From: a bacterium
GTDB taxonomy: Bacteria; Blakebacterota; Blakebacteria; Blakebacterales; Blakebacteraceae
Assembly (NCBI GenBank): GCA_025774205.1
Contig: JALGWK010000139.1
Location: 1-12,964, forward strand
Direction of reading: 5' to 3'
DNA: 12,964 nt
The translations under genes and the position numbers were made by a program. Below, piece by piece: positions 2,967 to 12,717 of the stretch; the first letter of the stretch is position 1, and every line of letters starts with the position of its first letter. Under the pieces are notes generated by a model that had not been told where the DNA came from, made no database searches, and worked only from the letters and a program-made list of their open reading frames with translations.

Positions 2967-4565
2967 TTATACTTCATCTTCCGCTTCTTTGGTTCCCTCC
3001 CGGGGAAGGGCTCCCCAGCCGCCCCCGCCCGGGGTTTCCAGTCGGATCCCCTCGCCCCGCTCCATCTGCCAGGTGCCCTTGCCGGGGAGCGGACTCTCCT
3101 TTCCATCTGCATCGAGCCTGGTGTTACGGCCCTGCTCTCCGGCCGCTCCCCCCTCGAGTCCCCAGGGACCGATGGTGCGCCGCTCGCTCAGCAGGCTCAC
3201 CGTGGCCGGAGCCCCCAGGACGATCTCCCGATGGATCCCGTCGCCGCCGGGATGAAGACCAGCTCCCCCTGACCCGCTCCGTATCCGGTAGCCGGTCACC
3301 CGGAAAGGGTAGGCGTGCTCGAGCGCCTCGATCGGGGTATTTCTCGTGTTGGTCATGTGGCAGTGGACCGCCGCAGGACCCCGGCTCCCCGGGCGCCCTC
3401 CCATACCGCCCCCGGTTGTCTCGTAGTAGGCGAACGATTCTCCGGTCCGGGGATCGATCCCCCCGATGGTCAGGTTGTTCATCGTGCCCTGGCTCGCGGC
3501 CGGGACCCGATCGGGAACGGCGCCGGCCAGCGCCCCCAGGATGACGTCCACCAGGCGCTGGCTCGTTTCGACGTTGCCCGCCGCCACCGCCGCCGGGTGA
3601 CGGGCATTCACGACCGTCCCCTCGGGAGCGATGAGGCGGATCGGCGCGAAGGAGCCGTGATTGGGCGGTACGGCCGGATCGAGCAGGCAGCGGAAGGCGT
3701 ACACCGTGGCCGACAGCGTAATGGCGTAGACCGCGTTCACCGGTCCGGTACATTGGGTGGCACTCTCCGAGAAATCGACCGTGGCTTCCTCCCCGTCGAT
3801 TGTGATGTTTACCCTGATCGGGATCGGCTCCTCGCTCAGGCCATCGTTATCGAGCCGGTCTTCGAAAGTGTACATCCCGTCGGGCAGTTCCCCGATCAGC
3901 GCCCGGGTCATCCGTTCGGCGTATCCGATGAGATGGTCCGCGTAGGCAACCGGTTCCTCCAGGCCGCGCTCATCCATCAGTTCCAGGAGGCGTCGCGCTC
4001 CGACATCGAGCGAGGCCATCTGCGCCCGCAGATCCCCTTCCCGCTCTCCAGGGGTGCGCACGTTGGCCATTATCAGCGCCGTGAGGTCGGGATCGGGTTC
4101 CTGTTCACCCTTCCGCCGGAGACGTACCGGCGGGATGCGGAGTCCCTCCTGGTAGATATCGACGGCCAGGGCCATCGAACCGGGCGCCATCCCGCCCACA
4201 TCAGCGTGGTGAGCCCGCGAAGCAACATAGAAGAGGGGACGACGTTCTGCGTACACCGGCGCCACCATGGTGAGGTCGGGCAGATGGGTGCCGCCGGCGA
4301 AGGGGTCGTTCAGAAGGACGACCTCCCCCGGCTCGAGGTGGCCATCCGCGAGCGCGGCCGCCACCGAGAGGGGCATGCTGCCGAGGTGGACCGGCAGGTG
4401 ATCACCCTGGGCGACGACCCGGCCCTCCCGGTCGAACACCGCGCAGGAGTAATCCCGGCGTTCCTTGATATTGGGGGATGAAGCAGTACGCTGGAGAACG
4501 GCTCCCATCTCTTCCGCGACTCCCGCGAAACGGTGCTTGTAGACTTCAAGGAGAATGGGGTCCAT
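2967..4565 (-). CDS. hyuB: N-methylhydantoinase B / 5-oxoprolinase family subunit (HyuB-like)
   Basis: This is the B subunit of the ATP-dependent hydantoinase/5-oxoprolinase family, which with HyuA opens cyclic amides such as 5-oxoproline or N-methylhydantoin; some relatives are the core of acetone or acetophenone carboxylases. The 532-residue length is normal for stand-alone HyuB. Family stretches seen are NIKERRDYSCAVFD (about 32-45), QGDHLPVHLGSMP (53-65), NDPFAGGTHLPDLTMVAPVY (86-105), ASRAHHADVGGMAPGSM (116-132), YETTGGGMGGRPGSRG near 378-393 and the C-terminal glycine-rich ETPGGGGWGALP. It begins with ATG 15 bp after the PfkB-like gene, so the two are probably co-translated. Its partner hyuA is not adjacent; two other genes lie between. 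The substrate cannot be read from the sequence. Confidence 0.93.
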   Translation of the reverse strand: MDPILLEVYKHRFAGVAEEMGAVLQRTASSPNIKERRDYSCAVFDREGRVVAQGDHLPVHLGSMPLSVAAALADGHLEPGEVVLLNDPFAGGTHLPDLTMVAPVYAERRPLFYVASRAHHADVGGMAPGSMALAVDIYQEGLRIPPVRLRRKGEQEPDPDLTALIMANVRTPGEREGDLRAQMASLDVGARRLLELMDERGLEEPVAYADHLIGYAERMTRALIGELPDGMYTFEDRLDNDGLSEEPIPIRVNITIDGEEATVDFSESATQCTGPVNAVYAITLSATVYAFRCLLDPAVPPNHGSFAPIRLIAPEGTVVNARHPAAVAAGNVETSQRLVDVILGALAGAVPDRVPAASQGTMNNLTIGGIDPRTGESFAYYETTGGGMGGRPGSRGPAAVHCHMTNTRNTPIEALEHAYPFRVTGYRIRSGSGGAGLHPGGDGIHREIVLGAPATVSLLSERRTIGPWGLEGGAAGEQGRNTRLDADGKESPLPGKGTWQMERGEGIRLETPGGGGWGALPREGTKEAEDEV

Positions 4566-4580
4566 TCAGTGTGTCCGTCT

Positions 4581-5594
4581 CTATCCGTCCTGGCTGTTGT
4601 CATCCTCCGCCGCGGGATCCTCGCCGGCCAGAACGGCGTTGATATCCGTGAGTGTCCCGAGGGCAAGGGCCCCCATGTGGGAGCAGGCAAAGCCGGCGCA
4701 GGCGGAGGCGAAGTAACCGGCCTCCTCGCCGTTGATCCCCCTGAGGAGCGCGTAGGAGAGGCCGCCGAAGTAGGCTCCCCCCGCGCCGGTCGGATCGACC
4801 GCCGAGGCGCCCAGGGCCTGGATCTCGTACTCCTCACCGTTGTAAGCCAGGTAGCTGCCCTCTTTGCCGGCCGTCACGACCGTGTAGCGGGAACCGTAGG
4901 TCTTGTGAAGAGCGCGACAGGAGAGCCGGGGATCCTCCTCGCCGGTCAGCTTCATCGCCGCGGTCAGACACGATTTCAGGACATCAGTTTTCTGCAGGAT
5001 GGCCTCGAGTTCCTTCTGATGTCCGATACCGGCCTCCTCCAGGAGGTAGACCGGGTCGGTGTCGAGGTCGGTGAAGATCAAGCAGTCAGCGGCGCTGGCC
5101 ACCTCGACCGCCTGCAGGGTCGTCCGGAGTGGAACTGTGGCGACGTCGGTGTGGAAGTGGAGCGAACCATCGATGCAGCCCACCATCGCGGCGTCGACCT
5201 TCTCCGGGGTCAGGTAGTTCAGGACGTTGGGGAAGATGATGATGCTCCGCTCGCCGTTCGGAGCGACCGATACCCACGAGAAGGGCGAACGCTGGTCCTC
5301 CCACCGCTCGATGCAGTGGGTCTGAACATTATCGTTCTCGAAATCGCTGAGGATGCGCGAACCCTCTTCATCGTCGCCGAGGATCCCCATCCAGGCGGCT
5401 CCAACGCCGAGGCGGGCCAGCTGGATGAGGCTCAGGGCGGTCGCCCCGCCCAGGGAGACCTCCAGCCCCTGACTGAGGACCTTCCGCTTCATGAATCCCG
5501 CTTCGGGTACCAGGGCAGTGGCGCCGCTGCCGCCGCCCTGCAGTTTCTCTTCAGCCGCTTTCCGCGGTGGACTCGATTTACGCTTGGCGTGCAT
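4581..5594 (-). CDS. Degenerate PfkB-fold (ribokinase family) protein, probably catalytically inactive
   Basis: The 337-residue protein is recognisable as a PfkB/ribokinase relative: GGATALSLIQLARLGVGAAW (49-68) and MGILGDDEEGSRI match the first PfkB signature region, VTAGKEGSYL (240-249) matches the nucleotide-site strand, and DPTGAGGAYFGGLSYAL (267-283) matches the second signature. Three hallmarks are missing. The second signature normally reads GAGD, whose Asp is the catalytic base; here it is GAGG, Gly273 (codon GGA). The NxxE motif that helps bind Mg and phosphate is replaced by CLTA (209-212). The usual first strand with its substrate-binding GxxxxD is absent: the N-terminus is a lysine-, proline- and glycine-rich stretch of about 35 residues instead. 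No frameshift near the start would restore the missing strand, and the frame is otherwise open. I therefore infer a pseudokinase, perhaps a ligand-binding or regulatory partner of the HyuA/HyuB enzyme that flanks it. The acidic tail EDPAAEDDNSQDG is probably disordered. Confidence 0.8.
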   Translation of the reverse strand: MHAKRKSSPPRKAAEEKLQGGGSGATALVPEAGFMKRKVLSQGLEVSLGGATALSLIQLARLGVGAAWMGILGDDEEGSRILSDFENDNVQTHCIERWEDQRSPFSWVSVAPNGERSIIIFPNVLNYLTPEKVDAAMVGCIDGSLHFHTDVATVPLRTTLQAVEVASAADCLIFTDLDTDPVYLLEEAGIGHQKELEAILQKTDVLKSCLTAAMKLTGEEDPRLSCRALHKTYGSRYTVVTAGKEGSYLAYNGEEYEIQALGASAVDPTGAGGAYFGGLSYALLRGINGEEAGYFASACAGFACSHMGALALGTLTDINAVLAGEDPAAEDDNSQDG

Positions 5595-5644
5595 GCTGAT
5601 TCTGTCCTGTTGTGATCCCTCTCACCCGTCCGGACCGGGGCATC

Positions 5645-6844
5645 TCAAAGCGCCGCCAGACCGGTCTCCAGGTCAGCCAGGATGTCTTCGATCTCTTCGA
5701 TCCCGACCGAAAGCCTGATCAGCCCGTCGGGAACACCCATCGCTTCACGTTCCTCCCTGCTAAACTTGTAGTGTGAGGAGACCGCAGGCAACAGCAGGGT
5801 GGTCTCGACACTGCCGAGGCTCGGCACGATTTTGATCAGTTTGAGGGAGTCAACGACCCGGTGAGCGGCGGCGAGGTCGCCGTCCACTTCGAAGGAGAGC
5901 ATCCCCCCGAACGCCGCCATCTGCCCTCCAGCGGTCTCATGGAACGGACTCGACTCCAGTCCGGGGTAGTTGACCCGCCGCACATCGGGACGCGCTTCGA
6001 GGAAGCGGGCGATCTCAAGCGCGTTCTCGCAGGCCCGCTCCACCCGCACCTTGAGGGTCTTCATCCCCCTCAGCAGGAGGAAGGCTGCCATCGGGTCCAT
6101 GATCCCGCCGAGGTCGATCAGGCGGGTACGGATCTCCGCGATCAGGTCGGTCGAACCGGTAATGACGCCCCCCGTGGTGTCACCGTGACCACCGAGGTAT
6201 TTGGTCAGGCTGTGGACCGCGATGTCGGCGCCCAGCTCGAGCGGGCGCTGCAGGATCGGCGTCGCGAAGGTGCTGTCCACCACAACCTTCGCTCCCGATT
6301 CGCGCGCGAATCCGACCGCCCTCGCGATGTCGACCACCTTCAGGGTGGGATTGGTGGGTGACTCCAGGTAGAGCAGGTCGGCACCCTCTCCCAGGGCTTC
6401 ACGCAGAACCGCTCCGTCACCCTGCTCGGAACCCACCTCCACCCAGATGACTTCCACTCCCCACGGTTCGAGTATCCGACTGAAGAATCCGGAGGAGCCG
6501 CCATAGAGATCGCGGTACGCGACCAGCCGGGCCCCGGGCCGGAGGAGGGTGAACATCACCGTCGAGATCGCGGCCATCCCCGAAGCGGCCGCGAGAGAGT
6601 TCCCGCCTCCCTCGAGAGCGGTCACTTTCTCCTCGAGCGCACGCACGGTCGGATTTCCCATCCGGGAGTAGATGTATTCTCCCTTCGGCCTCAGGAAGGC
6701 GTCTTCCAGCGCCTGGGCGGTCGGGAATCCGAAGGGCGCGGTCTGGTAGATCGGCACCGAGACAGCTCCGGTGGTGGGATCTATCTCTTCACCGGCGTGG
6801 ACTGCGCGGGTGGACAGGCCTCTCTTCAGGTTGTCATCAGCCAC
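5645..6844 (-). CDS. PLP-dependent trans-sulfuration enzyme (cystathionine gamma-synthase / gamma-lyase / methionine gamma-lyase family)
   Basis: This 399-residue protein belongs to the Cys/Met-metabolism PLP enzymes, which are usually homotetrameric and cytoplasmic. Visible active-site features are YSRMGNPT (59-66; Tyr59 and Arg61 bind the PLP phosphate of the neighbouring subunit), the catalytic Tyr114 in DLYGG, Asp190 in VVVDSTFATP (binds the pyridine nitrogen), the Schiff-base Lys215 in HSLTKYLGGHGD, and the substrate-carboxylate Arg377 in GLIRLSVGIE. Position 116 is Gly, not the Cys typical of classical methionine gamma-lyases, which leans towards cystathionine gamma-synthase/lyase or a sulfhydrylase; the sequence alone does not separate these, so no symbol is given. 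The usual DNTFATP is DSTFATP here. Translation starts at GTG 6844 with AGGAAGGA seven bases upstream. It lies 62 bp after hyuA, and that gap contains an imperfect palindrome that might be regulatory. Confidence 0.93.
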   Translation of the reverse strand: MADDNLKRGLSTRAVHAGEEIDPTTGAVSVPIYQTAPFGFPTAQALEDAFLRPKGEYIYSRMGNPTVRALEEKVTALEGGGNSLAAASGMAAISTVMFTLLRPGARLVAYRDLYGGSSGFFSRILEPWGVEVIWVEVGSEQGDGAVLREALGEGADLLYLESPTNPTLKVVDIARAVGFARESGAKVVVDSTFATPILQRPLELGADIAVHSLTKYLGGHGDTTGGVITGSTDLIAEIRTRLIDLGGIMDPMAAFLLLRGMKTLKVRVERACENALEIARFLEARPDVRRVNYPGLESSPFHETAGGQMAAFGGMLSFEVDGDLAAAHRVVDSLKLIKIVPSLGSVETTLLLPAVSSHYKFSREEREAMGVPDGLIRLSVGIEEIEDILADLETGLAAL

Positions 6845-6851
6845 GGATCAT

Positions 6852-6859
6852 TCCTTCCT
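6852..6859 (-). promoter_or_regulatory. Ribosome binding site of the trans-sulfuration gene
   Basis: AGGAAGGA on the minus strand is 7 bases before GTG 6844 and supports that non-ATG start. The palindrome at 6861-6898 ends one base upstream of it, so a protein bound there, or a hairpin in the transcript, could affect expression. Confidence 0.7.
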
Positions 6860-6860
6860 G

Positions 6861-6898
6861 GTGCCCTGTCACTCAACAACTGTCGCATGACATGACAC
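6861..6898. repeat. 38-bp imperfect palindrome in the hyuA / trans-sulfuration gap
   Basis: The 38 bases read GTGCCCTGTCACTC from the left on the plus strand and GTGTCATGTCATGC from the right on the minus strand, so the two halves are imperfect inverted copies of one motif, about GTGYCMTGTCAYKC. The plus-strand stretch 6862-6888 also matches the minus strand of 12863-12889 at 24 of 27 positions by eye. It could be a collapsed copy of the terminal repeats of the palindromic element upstream of the helicase gene, or a two-half-site operator. Confidence 0.6.
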
Positions 6899-6906
6899 TC
6901 GTCTGA

Positions 6907-9009
6907 TTATCCTTGATGGTCGAGGGTGATCAGCAGGTCGCCCCAGGAGCCGACCTCGACCCCGGCGCCGGGCGGCACGACCGTGGTCGCCGAGAATTCC
7001 TGGATCAGGAGCGGACCGGTCACGACCTGACCGGGTAAGAGCCGCTCCCGCGGGATCTGCGGCGCCTCGTGGCCCGTACCGTCCCAGATCATGGCCCGGG
7101 TCGGGAAGGATCCGGGATCGAATCCCTGTTCACCCTCTCCCCCGTCATCGATTCCGGGCAGGAGTTCATCGAGATCGGCCGCGCCCGGGCCGTGCCCCTC
7201 CACTCTCAGGGAGACCAGTTCCACCACGATTCCCGGGCGGTCATAGCCGTACCTCTCGAGGTGGGCCGCGGCGAAACGGTCTCGCGTTGCCTTCCAATCC
7301 TCTTCCGGCGCCGCCTCCCCGCTCACGGGCACGTCCACCGTCAGTTCGAACGACTGTCCGCGGTACCTCAGGTCGACCCGACGACGCAATTCGCATTCCT
7401 CCCGGGCCACCCCGGCTTCCTCCAGTCCCGCCAGCGCCTCCTCTTCGAGCCGGCGCCAGACCGTTGCCAGGGTCGCGGCGTCACCGACCGCGTCCGACCC
7501 CAGCACCGTCTGTGCCCGATCGACCCGCAGACCGGCCACCAGGGTGCCGACCGCCGACAGGAGACCCGGCTCACGCGGGACGAGTACCCGATCGACACCT
7601 ATCTCGGCTCCCAGCGCCGCCGCGTGCATGGCCCCCGCCCCCCCGAAGGCAACGAGGACATATTCCCGGGGGTCCTTCCCCCGCTCAACACTGATCTTGC
7701 GCAGCGCCGCCGCCATGGTGGTGACCGCGACCTGTATCACGCCTTCAGCGATCTCTTCCGGCGTGTGTGTTTGCGCCCCCGAAACGGCGGCTGCCGCAGC
7801 AGCCAGAGCCCGCAGCCCCTCGAGCGAAGCGGCTGAGTCGAGCTCCATGGTCCCCCCGAGGAGCCCGGCAGCAGGCAGTCGTCCGAGCACGAGGTTGGCA
7901 TCGGTGACCGTGACGCCTTCTCCGGCCGGGCCGGGTGACCTCCGGCCGTAAGCGAGTGGTCCGGGATCGGCCCCGGCGCTCTGTGGTCCGACGTTGAGAG
8001 CGCCGCCGCGGTCGATCCGCGCCAGACTCCCGCCACCGGCGCCAACGGTATGCATGTCGATCTGTTCGACGAGAAGAGGATAGCCTTCCAGCCCCCCTTC
8101 GCTGGTCTGGTGAATGGCGCCGTCGCAGAGAGCCACGTCGGTGCTCGTGCCGCCCATGTCGAAGGTGAGGATATTCGGGAAGCCCGCCCGACGGGCGACC
8201 GCGAGCGCTCCGGCGACTCCTGCCGCGGGCCCCGACAGCAGGGTGTGAACCGGTTCCCGGGCGGCACGTTCGGCCGAGAGGCTGCCGCCGCTGGAGGTGG
8301 TGATGACGAGGTCGGCCGCCCCCAGCCCCGCCCGCAGCGCTCCCAGGTAGCGACTCATGATCGGCTGGACACTCGCGTTTACGGCGACGGTAGAGGAACG
8401 TTCATACTCGCGGAAGAGGGGTATCAGTTCCGATGAACGGGTGATCGGGATCCCGGGGAATCGTTCGGCCAGCGCCTCGGCCACGATCTGTTCATGGGTC
8501 GCGTTGGCATAGGCGTGGAGGAGTGAGATCGCGATCGCTTCCGGCGGCGGGTCGAGGGAGTCGATCTGATCAATCAGGTCGGCCAGGGCCTCACTGCCGG
8601 GGGTGAGGGCCAGTTCCGCCTGGCCCTCGGGACCGATCCGCTCGGCGATTCCCAGCCGTCGTTCACCGGGGATGAGCGGAGCGGGCCGCTCGACCTCGAG
8701 ATCGTACAGGGCCGGCCGGTCCTGGCGGGCGATCTCCAGGACGTCTTCGAATCCCAGGGTGGTCACCAGGAGAGCTCGGGCCACGTTGCCGGTCAGGATG
8801 GCGTTGGTTGCCACGGTGGTCCCGTGGGCGATCCTGTCACCTCGCTGCAGGGTACCTTCGCCAAGCGTCTCCGCGATGCCGTCGAGTACGGCCCGGTACG
8901 GTCCCGCGGGGGTGCTGCTCAGTTTGTGATGCACCAGTCCGGCGGGAGTGAGCGCCACGAGGTCGGTGAAGGTCCCCCCGGTATCGACTCCGATGCAGTG
9001 TTCCCGCAT
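6907..9009 (-). CDS. hyuA: N-methylhydantoinase A / 5-oxoprolinase family ATPase subunit (HyuA-like)
   Basis: HyuA is the ATP-using subunit of the hydantoinase/5-oxoprolinase family and has an actin/ASKHA-type nucleotide fold. The 700-residue protein has the normal length and three expected glycine motifs: GVDTGGTFTDLVAL (7-20), LTFDMGGTSTDVAL (281-294) and VAFGGAGAMHAAALG (453-467). Also typical are AHGTTVATNAILTG (61-74), LLSGPAAGVAGA (257-268) and HTVGAGGGSLARID (320-333). No motif is missing. ATG 9009 lies 11 bp after galK with a GGGGA ribosome site overlapping the end of that gene, so both are likely on one mRNA. With HyuB (2967-4565) it should form the working enzyme; hydantoin, N-methylhydantoin and 5-oxoproline are candidate substrates, and the nearby sulfur amino-acid enzyme is weak support for a glutathione-breakdown (5-oxoproline) role. 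The cytoplasm is the expected location, as there is no signal peptide. Confidence 0.95.
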   Translation of the reverse strand: MREHCIGVDTGGTFTDLVALTPAGLVHHKLSSTPAGPYRAVLDGIAETLGEGTLQRGDRIAHGTTVATNAILTGNVARALLVTTLGFEDVLEIARQDRPALYDLEVERPAPLIPGERRLGIAERIGPEGQAELALTPGSEALADLIDQIDSLDPPPEAIAISLLHAYANATHEQIVAEALAERFPGIPITRSSELIPLFREYERSSTVAVNASVQPIMSRYLGALRAGLGAADLVITTSSGGSLSAERAAREPVHTLLSGPAAGVAGALAVARRAGFPNILTFDMGGTSTDVALCDGAIHQTSEGGLEGYPLLVEQIDMHTVGAGGGSLARIDRGGALNVGPQSAGADPGPLAYGRRSPGPAGEGVTVTDANLVLGRLPAAGLLGGTMELDSAASLEGLRALAAAAAAVSGAQTHTPEEIAEGVIQVAVTTMAAALRKISVERGKDPREYVLVAFGGAGAMHAAALGAEIGVDRVLVPREPGLLSAVGTLVAGLRVDRAQTVLGSDAVGDAATLATVWRRLEEEALAGLEEAGVAREECELRRRVDLRYRGQSFELTVDVPVSGEAAPEEDWKATRDRFAAAHLERYGYDRPGIVVELVSLRVEGHGPGAADLDELLPGIDDGGEGEQGFDPGSFPTRAMIWDGTGHEAPQIPRERLLPGQVVTGPLLIQEFSATTVVPPGAGVEVGSWGDLLITLDHQG

Positions 9010-9020
9010 GACGCAGTCCC

Positions 9021-10247
9021 CTATCTTTCGACCGACCAGACTCCGGCGCCTCCGGCGGAACGGAGATGATGGATCGGCGGCCGGCGGCCGAAGTTTTTCT
9101 CGAATCCGTCTGTGACCGTCTGCCGGAGCGCTTCAGCGCACTCATTATCATGGAAGACGACCGAGCAGCCTCCGAAGCCGGCGCCGGTGAGCCTGGCGCC
9201 GAAAACCCCTTCCACGGTAAGCGCCAGCTCAACGATGCGGTCGAGTTCCGGTATGCTGACCTCGTAGAGGCACGCGAGCGATTGGTGGCATTCGACCATC
9301 AACTCTCCGAACCTGACCGTGTCGCCCAGGGCGAGGCTCGTAACCCCTTCCTTCACCCGGGCAATGGCGCCGACTACGTGATCGACCCGCGAGCGGAGCG
9401 GTTCGGGGAGGAGGTCATCCACCTCCGCGAACACTTCCGGAGTCAGATCACGCAACGCCGGAAGCGGTCCGGCGACCTTCCGCAAGATAGTCAGGGCGGT
9501 CTCGATTTCCTGCCGTCGTTTCACGTATTCGCTCGCGGCAAGCTCCCTGCGTACACCCGAATCGACCACCGTCACGGCCGTCCCGGCCGGTAGATCGATA
9601 TTGTGCCAGGAGAGGTCGCGGCAATCGAGGAAGAGTGCCCGGCCTTCCTCGGCCATGAAACTCGCGAACTGGTCCATGATACCGCAGGGGACGCCGGCCC
9701 AGCGGTTCTCGGCGCGCTGACAGAGCAGGGCCGCCTCCGGTGTGGCCCGGTCATTGCTGAGGGCCAGGTAGACCGCCGCCTCGAGGGCCGCCGAGGAAGA
9801 GAGCCCCGAACCGAGCGGCACGTCACCAGCTATCACTCCGAGGCCTGCCGGGACCGGCAGGCCGGCGGCTGACATCTCGAGCGCGACGCCGGCCGCATAT
9901 CGCCGCCAGCGGTTTTCCCTGCCCCCGGCGAGTCTCTCGAAGGCTCCGTCGTCTTCCCGGTACCGGGGGAGATCACGGGGATCGATGATGAATCGGTCGT
10001 CGAAATCGAGGCTGACGAACTCGAGCATCCCCTCTGCCCGTTCGGCGAAGGCGCACGTCACCCGGCGATCCACCGCGACCGGCAGGACGTAACCATCGTT
10101 GTAGTCGGTGTGACCGCCGAGCAGATTCACCCGGCCGGGGGCAAGAGCGATCCGCGCCCGACCGCCCTCATCGGCGCCGACCAGTTCCTGCAATCCCGTG
10201 ATCGCCCGGCGGGCGGGCTCCGGCCACTCCTGCCCGAACGCGGTCAT
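9021..10247 (-). CDS. galK: Galactokinase-family GHMP sugar kinase
   Basis: The 408-residue protein has all three GHMP motifs: the galactokinase signature APGRVNLLGGHTDYNDGYVL (36-55), the ATP-binding GDVPLGSGLSSSAALEAA (141-158), and LTGAGFGGCSVVF (353-365). The catalytic Asp192 lies in CGIMDQFASF, and the pocket Tyr241 in SEYVKRR. Galactokinases phosphorylate the C1 hydroxyl of galactose in the Leloir pathway. One pocket residue is unusual: the normal GEHTDY reads GGHTDY, so the Glu that contacts the galactose C6 hydroxyl is Gly45, as in plant arabinokinases (MGGIADY). Loop 319-330 also reads ECHQSLACLYEV where galactokinases usually have SHASLRDDYEV. The substrate may therefore not be galactose. 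ATG 10247 is chosen over the in-frame codon at 10274 because it forms an ATGA overlap with the helicase stop and has GGGAG eight bases upstream. No galT or galE is in view. Confidence 0.88.
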   Translation of the reverse strand: MTAFGQEWPEPARRAITGLQELVGADEGGRARIALAPGRVNLLGGHTDYNDGYVLPVAVDRRVTCAFAERAEGMLEFVSLDFDDRFIIDPRDLPRYREDDGAFERLAGGRENRWRRYAAGVALEMSAAGLPVPAGLGVIAGDVPLGSGLSSSAALEAAVYLALSNDRATPEAALLCQRAENRWAGVPCGIMDQFASFMAEEGRALFLDCRDLSWHNIDLPAGTAVTVVDSGVRRELAASEYVKRRQEIETALTILRKVAGPLPALRDLTPEVFAEVDDLLPEPLRSRVDHVVGAIARVKEGVTSLALGDTVRFGELMVECHQSLACLYEVSIPELDRIVELALTVEGVFGARLTGAGFGGCSVVFHDNECAEALRQTVTDGFEKNFGRRPPIHHLRSAGGAGVWSVER

Positions 10248-12717
10248 GAATCCATCTCCCGTTCCCTGAACCATGCCTCCACGATCGCGGGCACCTCGCT
10301 GGCAGGTACGATCACCGGTTCGCCCCAGCCGAGGGAGTCGAGAAAGAGACGCCCGTACCGGCGGGTGAGGATCCGTGGGTCGAGTACGATCGCGATCCCC
10401 CGATCCTCACGATGCCGGATGAGCCGCCCCATCCCCTGCTTGAATTTCAATATGGCCATCGGCAGCAGCAGCCCGGTGAAGGCGTTCCCTCCCTCCCGCT
10501 CCAGTTTCTCGGCGCGGGCCTGGAGGACCGGTTCGGAGGGTACCCGGAAGGGGAGCCTGGTGAGCGCCAGCAGGCTCAGGGCTTCACCCCGGACGTCGAT
10601 TCCCTCCCAGAAGGAATCGGTCGCCAGGAGCGCTTCCCCGGCTCCGGCGCGCAGCCCCTCGAGTTCACCGTGCACTGCCTGCAGCATACCGTAGGAGGTC
10701 ATCAGGACGAGGGATCGTCCGCCGGCGGCGGTGATCACCGGCCCGAGCAGATCGACCACCGCCGACCGGTGCGCTGCCTCGGTCGGATCGGGCATGTCAT
10801 CCGGAATGAGGAAGGTCACCTGCCCGGCATGGTCGAACGGGCTCGGCAGCGAATCGGCTACCAGCCGCCCTCCCTCCAGCAGTTCGAGTCCGAGACGGGA
10901 CGAGATGTAGTCGAAGGTCCCTCCTGCCGAGAGGGTGGCGGAGGTGAGGAGGACTCCCTCCACCGCTTCGAAAGCCGACCGCGCCAGCCGCGGGCCGACC
11001 TCGATCGGCGCGGTGGACAGCGTGAGCCTCGAGCCGCCCTTCCGCGTGGTTCGGCTCTCGAGCCAGCGCACCGTCTCCCGGGATCGATGAAACGCGCCAG
11101 GGCAGCGGCGGCCGCGTTCAGCCGGTTGGTGATCGCCGAGATGTCGATGACGGGGGACTCGACCTCCTTTACGTACTCGTCACGGATCGTGCCCAGGTCA
11201 CGGAGGAGCCGTCCCAGCGAGGTCGTGAAGCGGGTGAGTTCGGTCCTGAGAGCGGCGCAGGAAACGCTGGCGTCATCACGCCAGGCCGGGCTCTCCTCTA
11301 CCTCCTCGGTCACCCGGAGCCGGTTCTCCTCCCCGCTCCCGGCCATCAGTGTCCGGGCCGCCCGGGAGAGCGATTCGAAGTGCGCCGGGATCGCCTCGGC
11401 CGCGGTTACGAGCGCCGGTCGGACTTCTGTCTCCAGCCGTTCGAGGACCCGATCGACCCGGGGATCACCTTCGGCCAGCGGCAGCAGGTTCCTCAGCAGC
11501 AGCGGCAGGAGCCCCTTCGTTGACCGGCGCCGATGCTGCAGGCGCCCCAGTTGCCGCTGCAGACCCACACTGTTGATCACGGTTCCGAAGTGGCTGGTGG
11601 CGACCTCCTCCACGTGCTGGGCCTCGTCGATGACCAGATGCGAATAGGCCGGCAGAACCGCCGTTGAAGCCGTCCCTCCCATCGCCTCCCGCAGGGCGAG
11701 ATCGGTGAAGAGGAGATGGTGGTTCACGACCAGGATGTCCGCCCCGGCGGCCCGCTTCCTGGCCCGGTAGAAATGACAGTCATTGAAGAAGGGGCAGCGG
11801 GCGCGGGTGCAGTCATCGGCCTCGGTCGCGAGCTGTTCCCACAAGCCGGGGGCGGGCGGCGGGCGCAGATCGGCGAGGCTGCCGTCACCGCTCGAGAACG
11901 CCCAGGCGGCCAGTCGGCGCAGTTCCGGCACCTCCTCATCCAGGTCGGCGAAGAGATCGGGATCTCCCCGCACTTCATCGGCTTTCCTGAGACAGGCGTA
12001 GTTCCGCCGCCCTTTGACGAGGACCGCGGTGAACTCGAGTCCCGCGCGCTCAAGCACGGGAAGGTCCGATCCGATCAGCTGTTCCTGGAGATTGATCGTG
12101 TTCGTGGAGACAACCACCCGCCGGTGGTTCCTGGTGGCCCAGAGGATCGCCGGAACCAGGTAGGCGAGGCTCTTGCCGACCCCCGTGCCCGCCTCCACGA
12201 CCACCACCCGGCCATCGTTGAAGGTGCCCGCCGCGGCCAGCGCCATCTCGACCTGGGAGGCGCGGGGCTCGTACCCCTCCAGGGCAGCGGAGAGCGGCCC
12301 ATCCGGAGCGAAGAAATCTGCCACCTCGTCCAGATCGAGTGGTTCGGTCTCCCGGGCCGGTTGCGGCTCGACCACCACGTAGATATCCCGGCAGGCGTTG
12401 TCGATGATGGCGAATCCGATCCCGTCCCGACCGAGGATGGAAGCGACCTCCAGATCGGGGCCGGAGGCCTTCACGATCCCCGAGGGATGATTATGGATCA
12501 CCAGATCACCGGGCCGGGCCGCCTGGGCCACCACCGGCACCGCTCCATCATCACCCCGGGCCGCCACCTCCGCCTCTGCCACCATCCCGTCGGGCGAGAG
12601 GCGGCCGATGAAGAAGACCTCACTCCCTCCGGCGGCAACGATCTCGCTGACGAGGGCTTCCCGTACGGCGGGAATGATCCATTCTTCGACCGGTCTGGAG
12701 GGATTATCGAGTGTCAT
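10244..12717 (-). CDS. dinG: DinG/XPD-type ATP-dependent helicase with N-terminal JAB/JAMM domain, frame broken at 11077-11079
   Basis: This is a superfamily 2 iron-sulfur DNA helicase of the DinG type, expected to unwind DNA 5' to 3' in repair. Numbered from ATG 12717, residues about 15-118 form a JAB/JAMM-like domain: Glu33 in GGSEVFFIGRL and IHNHPSGIVKASGPD, giving His75, His77, Ser85 and Asp88 in exact HxH-x7-S-x2-D spacing. The helicase follows: Walker A EAGTGVGKS (Lys182), Fe-S cysteines 242, 303, 308 and 314, Walker B VIDEAQH (364-367 is DEAQ where DEAH is usual), then, after the break, LLTSATLS (about 591-598), FWEGID (703-708) and QGMGRLIR (761-768). One G is missing in the CCCGGG at 11077-11082: the first frame ends as an unrelated tail at 10858 and the second carries the rest to TGA 10244. 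Restored, the protein is about 824 residues. The in-frame GTG at 12759 lies inside a palindromic element, so ATG 12717 is preferred, though its ribosome site is poor. It overlaps galK by 4 bp. Confidence 0.9.
10256..10260 (-). promoter_or_regulatory. Ribosome binding site of galK
   Basis: GGGAG on the minus strand lies inside the helicase 3' end, 8 bases before ATG 10247. Together with the ATGA overlap it favours this start over the longer frame from 10274. Confidence 0.6.

Follow-up and report, generated by a model that had tools for sequence, protein, structure and literature searches.

What a hydrolase-type metal site might do at the head of a DNA helicase is the question raised by a gene on the minus strand of a 12,964-nucleotide stretch of bacterial DNA (contig JALGWK010000139.1, hereafter the window), in which, from position 12717 to about 10244, a RadC-type JAB/MPN domain is joined directly to a four-cysteine helicase of the DinG/YoaA type. 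The role of RadC-type JAB domains has stood as a question since the repair role of RadC was withdrawn, and a hydrolase site that has stayed intact and deeply conserved on a DNA motor in many phyla provides a direct handle on it. The same arrangement bears on whether bacteria own a protease-helicase dedicated to proteins that have become stuck on DNA.

An ATG at 12717 opens a minus-strand frame that passes without interruption from the JAB-like region into the DinG-type motor. The preliminary description of this DNA had placed JAMM residues at Glu33, His75, His77, Ser85 and Asp88, in HxH-x7-S-x2-D spacing, and all of them are found there. On the minus strand, Glu33, the predicted general acid-base, is encoded at 12619..12621, and the HNH-x7-S-x2-D motif occupies 12454..12495, with the codons of His75-Asn76-His77 at 12487-12495, of Ser85 at 12463-12465 and of Asp88 at 12454-12456. 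The order of the site, E-x41-H-N-H-x7-S-x2-D, agrees with the JAMM/MPN+ signature E-xn-H(S/T/N)H-x7-S-x2-D, and His75, His77 and Asp88 are the zinc ligands predicted from it. The E, H, H, S and D residues together with a bracing Asn have been shown or predicted to be important in JAMM peptidases, and Asn at the middle position between the histidines has been noted for distant JAMM relatives (PMC300881). Among 79 distinct JAB domains the expected residue is present at E33 in 76, at H75 in 78, at H77 in 77, at S85 in 77 and at D88 in all 79; the commonest residue reaches 97-100% at these positions versus a median column conservation of 42%, which argues against a chance occurrence of the motif.

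One of these domains, L043, ends before E33, which leaves 78 of the 79 readable at all five positions, and 75 of the 78 have all five residues intact. In the other three the site is degraded: L209 has E replaced by G and S by T, L210 has E replaced by D and has lost both histidines, and L211 has the second H replaced by L and S by T. The fused frame is intact in all three (877, 843 and 891 aa, respectively). These relatives resemble pseudo-JAB forms, much as in the pExoDinG class, and their JAMM domains are probably metal-free; the accessible part of the paper that deals with these helicases (Cheng 2025; PMC11981726) makes no mention of such forms.

The fold itself was assessed by modelling and by profile searches. 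AlphaFold2 modelled the domain from the window's own residues with pLDDT 93.4 and pTM 0.82, and Foldseek reached E below 0.001 solely with chains of the RadC structure 2qlc. VIA-align returned BubCD (Z 9.2), Rpn11 (8.8), AF2198 (8.5), PfJAMM1 (8.5) and RadC 2qlc (8.3), with residues 11-117/120 aligned; these Z values are moderate by themselves, but nearly all rows belong to one fold family and the profile match agrees. That match, obtained with a profile of 31 relatives, is to RadC of Chlorobium tepidum (2qlc; E 7e-8) and aligns the HNHPSG...PS..D motif, and 30 of the 31 relatives individually match Pfam RadC (PF04002) at E<=0.01. The window's own domain scores 12.5-15.8 bits with the Pfam RadC model, below the curated cut-off of 22.1, and neither Prok-JAB (PF14464) nor RadC (PF04002) gave anything above threshold in the window's genome; it is too diverged for these two models alone, which is why profiles of its relatives were used. 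A weak match to filamin-B (E 0.0065) was gone once the profile search had been done. The model and the fold searches give the domain the JAB/MPN fold expected of JAMM/MPN+ metallopeptidases, where a non-JAB fold would have overturned the earlier assignment. The region had been given as 12330-12717; the domain is indeed present there, but the fold proper comprises residues 11-117, at 12367..12687 on the minus strand.

As the preliminary description had also held, this domain is followed by the hallmarks of an Fe-S helicase of the DinG/XPD type, here all on the minus strand: a Walker A motif EAGTGVGK (residues 175-182, 12172..12195; Pfam DEAD, E 2.7e-9), four cysteines of the Fe-S domain (C242, C303, C308 and C314, 11776..11994), invariant or nearly so across 27 aligned proteins, and a Walker B motif DEAQ (residues 364-367, 11617..11628), which is DEAH in most relatives and DEAQ also in the two nearest ones, from the same family. 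Pfam detects the motor (DEAD, Helicase_C_2) clearly and the JAB region weakly, and the best NCBIfam model for the motor is YoaA, though under its cut-off. A full-length relative from Geobacter argillaceus (L017), modelled at pLDDT 88, matches the E. coli DinG-ssDNA complex 6fwr (E 3e-42) as well as XPD, CasDinG and S. aureus DinG. Sequence and model thus show the helicase fold and the Fe-S cysteines, as they do the JAMM residues and the JAB fold.

The preliminary description was right about the fusion. The frame breaks at about 11077-11080, however, and the C-terminal motor domain lies in another frame. The open N-terminal part (11080..12717, minus strand), comprising the JAB domain, the first motor domain and the Fe-S and Arch domains, shows about 72% identity to two relatives of the same family, whose alignment runs as far as 11080 and picks up again at 11077 in the other frame, six residues being missing. 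At the break itself (11077..11080, minus strand) the window has about 16 nt fewer than both near relatives, whose helicase genes have an intact frame. Beyond it, the C-terminal motor domain (10244..11077, minus strand; Helicase_C_2, PF13307, E 4.4e-34) is 64-68% identical to the same relatives. The window's genome is an assembly of 527 contigs, 86% complete, and on the same contig carB (1578-1717) is also split, its N-terminal stretch of about 47 residues being in another frame than the rest (ATIMTDPE...). Compared with known CarB sequences, the carB split looks like a short deletion, and it is probably likewise an assembly error. Two such breaks, one of them in a housekeeping gene, in an assembly of 527 contigs suggest that the helicase break has the same cause. 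Decay of the window's gene into a pseudogene, as the break itself might indicate, is improbable in view of the comparable deletion in carB, the intact genes of both relatives and the incompleteness and fragmentation of the assembly.

About 30 nt (10244-10274) are shared by the end of the helicase gene, with its stop, and the beginning of the galactokinase-like gene that lies downstream (9021-10274), which suggests that the two are co-transcribed. Further along, the minus strand carries genes for the A (6907-9009) and B (2967-4565) subunits of a hydantoinase/oxoprolinase (together 2967-9009), with a PfkB-family kinase (4581-5594) and a PLP enzyme of Cys/Met metabolism (5645-6844) between them, also on the minus strand. 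The neighbours of the helicase within the window are metabolic genes. Clustering of 33 neighbourhoods of the fusion revealed no shared partner gene, just synteny at the level of lineages (Gemmatimonadota, Treponema), and no recurrent neighbours that would hint at a crosslink or ubiquitin-like pathway. Assignment to CasDinG of type IV CRISPR systems was rejected on account of the metabolic neighbours, the lack of csf genes or a CRISPR beside the gene and the presence of the Fe-S cysteines; the PADLOC DinG models match the window protein solely via the common motor.

A survey of DinG homologues, proposed in the preliminary description as a check, was carried out in 389 genomes, at least 90% complete except for the window's own, with a domain threshold of E<=1e-12; contig scans used an alignment (A2) that includes the motor motifs. 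The domain was found in 43 of the 389 genomes, or 40 of 380 after quality filtering, with one copy per carrier genome and always fused to the motor, which indicates that JAB site and motor are maintained together. The fused open frame has at least 818 residues, the exceptions being the frame-broken window gene, the single match to the motor family in its genome, and one fragment at a contig end. Any DinG/XPD-type C-terminal motor was present in 237 of 387 genomes of a similar sample; the fusion thus accounts for about one DinG carrier in six and is found in about a tenth of bacterial species. Named carriers include Geobacteraceae and other Desulfuromonadales, Spirochaetota, Gemmatimonadota, Sumerlaeota, Dadabacteria, Fusobacteriota and Myxococcota, while none of 69 DinG-like loci on viral contigs had the JAB domain in a profile search at E 1e-3. 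Standalone RadC is absent from the window's genome (86% complete), and strong standalone RadC occurs in 35 of the 43 fusion carriers versus 225 of 346 non-carriers (about 65%), counting any match; since so many carriers also hold RadC, the fusion as a replacement of RadC was rejected.

In a tree of the motor alone, a branch with SH-aLRT 98 separates all 40 JAB-bearing helicases, together with four JAB-less ones from Treponema, from ExoDinG and the other standalone forms. The Treponema helicases (L057, L069, L078 and L091) lie inside the JAB-bearing clade, and no JAB remnant was seen in their upstream DNA, as far as the sequence reached. Since a supported branch sets the JAB-bearing helicases apart in this way, the simplest reading of these sequences is one fusion, probably followed by losses of the JAB domain inside Treponema; the tree is a quick search with a midpoint root, in which this direction is likely but unproven.

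The architecture, whose novelty the preliminary description had left unproven, is not new. A class named RadC-like DinG, with an E/H/H/D site, a modelled zinc and a YoaA-like helicase, and exemplified by Desulfuromonas soudanensis, is presented in Cheng 2025 (PMC11981726), where it is also stated that 'no research has been conducted' on it and that HolC, the partner of YoaA, is absent from its hosts. The window protein has the RadC-like N-terminal domain and the DinG motor in one chain, the metal site of one E, two H and one D (E33, H75, H77, D88), the four-cysteine Fe-S domain and a helicase closest to YoaA. On its sequence and models it is almost certainly a further member of the class: an Fe-S helicase of the DinG/YoaA type whose N-terminal JAMM domain is of the RadC type and has the full set of zinc-hydrolase residues. 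What appears to be new, as far as the literature was searched, are the figures for prevalence, the finding that the domain is always fused and in single copy, its probable origin in one event with losses in Treponema, the variants with degraded sites and the coexistence with standalone RadC.

As to function, the reading that we favour, at a probability of about 0.35-0.38, is that the helicase would load on single-stranded DNA and translocate 5'-3', like other XPD/DinG helicases; on meeting a protein bound to the DNA tightly or by a covalent link, the motor would pull on it and unfold it, the JAMM zinc site would then cut a peptide or isopeptide bond in it, and a blocked fork or DNA-protein crosslink would be cleared. 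Zinc binding, peptidase activity, the substrate and the coupling of motor and peptidase are what we infer here. This mechanism is favoured by the JAMM residues, intact across many phyla, by a fold nearest RadC and the zinc peptidases BubCD, Rpn11 and PfJAMM1, by the full-length model with its matches to DinG on ssDNA, XPD and DinG of S. aureus, and by the constant single-copy fusion. That the catalytic Glu and Ser are conserved speaks for hydrolysis in particular. It is modelled on FANCJ, of the same Fe-S helicase family, which on translocating runs into a crosslinked protein and unfolds it for cleavage by the metalloprotease SPRTN (PMC12279946), with the division of labour put into one chain. 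Against it stands the lack of conserved neighbour genes for a crosslink or ubiquitin-like pathway. No literature linking DinG or RadC to DNA-protein crosslinks was found on RadC-like DinG in the library searched. That the class as a whole serves as a single-chain crosslink-repair enzyme, its helicase unfolding the adduct and its JAMM protease cutting it, is unlikely.

Loss of the JAMM domain in several Treponema and its degradation in three relatives indicate that it is an accessory and that the hydrolase is dispensable in some lineages. Lineages that lose the JAMM site yet keep the helicase lend some weight to a different reading, in which the JAB domain serves regulation or substrate recognition by binding protein or DNA, its metal site is structural and the protein acts as a YoaA/DinG-type helicase; pExoDinG offers a parallel, since it keeps an N-terminal pseudo-exonuclease without the full catalytic set, according to PMC11981726. 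We regard this as possible though doubtful, because intact sites far outnumber degraded ones and include the catalytic Glu and Ser, which a purely structural metal would not need. The structural matches to BubCD, which belongs to a bacterial ubiquitin-like pathway, and to PfJAMM1 and Rpn11 could instead point to an isopeptidase that removes a ubiquitin-like tag from DNA-bound proteins, yet no ubiquitin-like, E1 or E2 genes recur in the 33 neighbourhoods and the broad single-copy distribution resembles that of a housekeeping helicase rather than of a conjugation operon, so that such a role has a slim chance. Equally hard to credit is a RadC-type activity brought to the helicase and possibly exerted on DNA, as a nuclease or in binding of DNA structures: RadC is the closest family in sequence and in the PDB profile match, but according to PMC11981726 it appears by phenotype unrelated to DNA repair and DALI finds no nuclease relatives of the RadC-like domain, and most carriers have a RadC of their own. 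Of the three roles that the preliminary description had suggested, nuclease, peptidase or recognition module, the nuclease is the least likely, as the nearest characterised folds are peptidases. Relatives whose JAB domain has decayed or been lost provide natural controls.

Compared with known systems, the window protein differs from other RadC-like DinG proteins in nothing essential to the architecture, having DEAQ in place of DEAH and a frame broken in the assembly. With RadC (PF04002; 2qlc) it shares the JAB fold and the HNH-x7-S-x2-D motif, but RadC stands alone, normally with its own N-terminal region, whereas here the domain is fused to a helicase. YoaA and DinG of E. coli have the same kind of Fe-S XPD-family motor, but without the N-terminal JAB domain. 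ExoDinG of Bacillus and Staphylococcus likewise combines a DinG helicase with an N-terminal enzymatic domain, but that domain is a DEDD 3'-5' exonuclease in place of JAMM, and its helicase forms a separate branch; with a JAB domain and no DEDD exonuclease, the window protein does not belong there. FANCJ and SPRTN provide the functional analogy of an Fe-S helicase of the XPD family that acts together with a zinc metalloprotease, although they are two proteins, SPRTN has another protease fold, and action of the bacterial protein on crosslinks is a proposal; if the mechanism is true, RadC-like DinG would be their one-protein counterpart in roughly a tenth of bacterial species.
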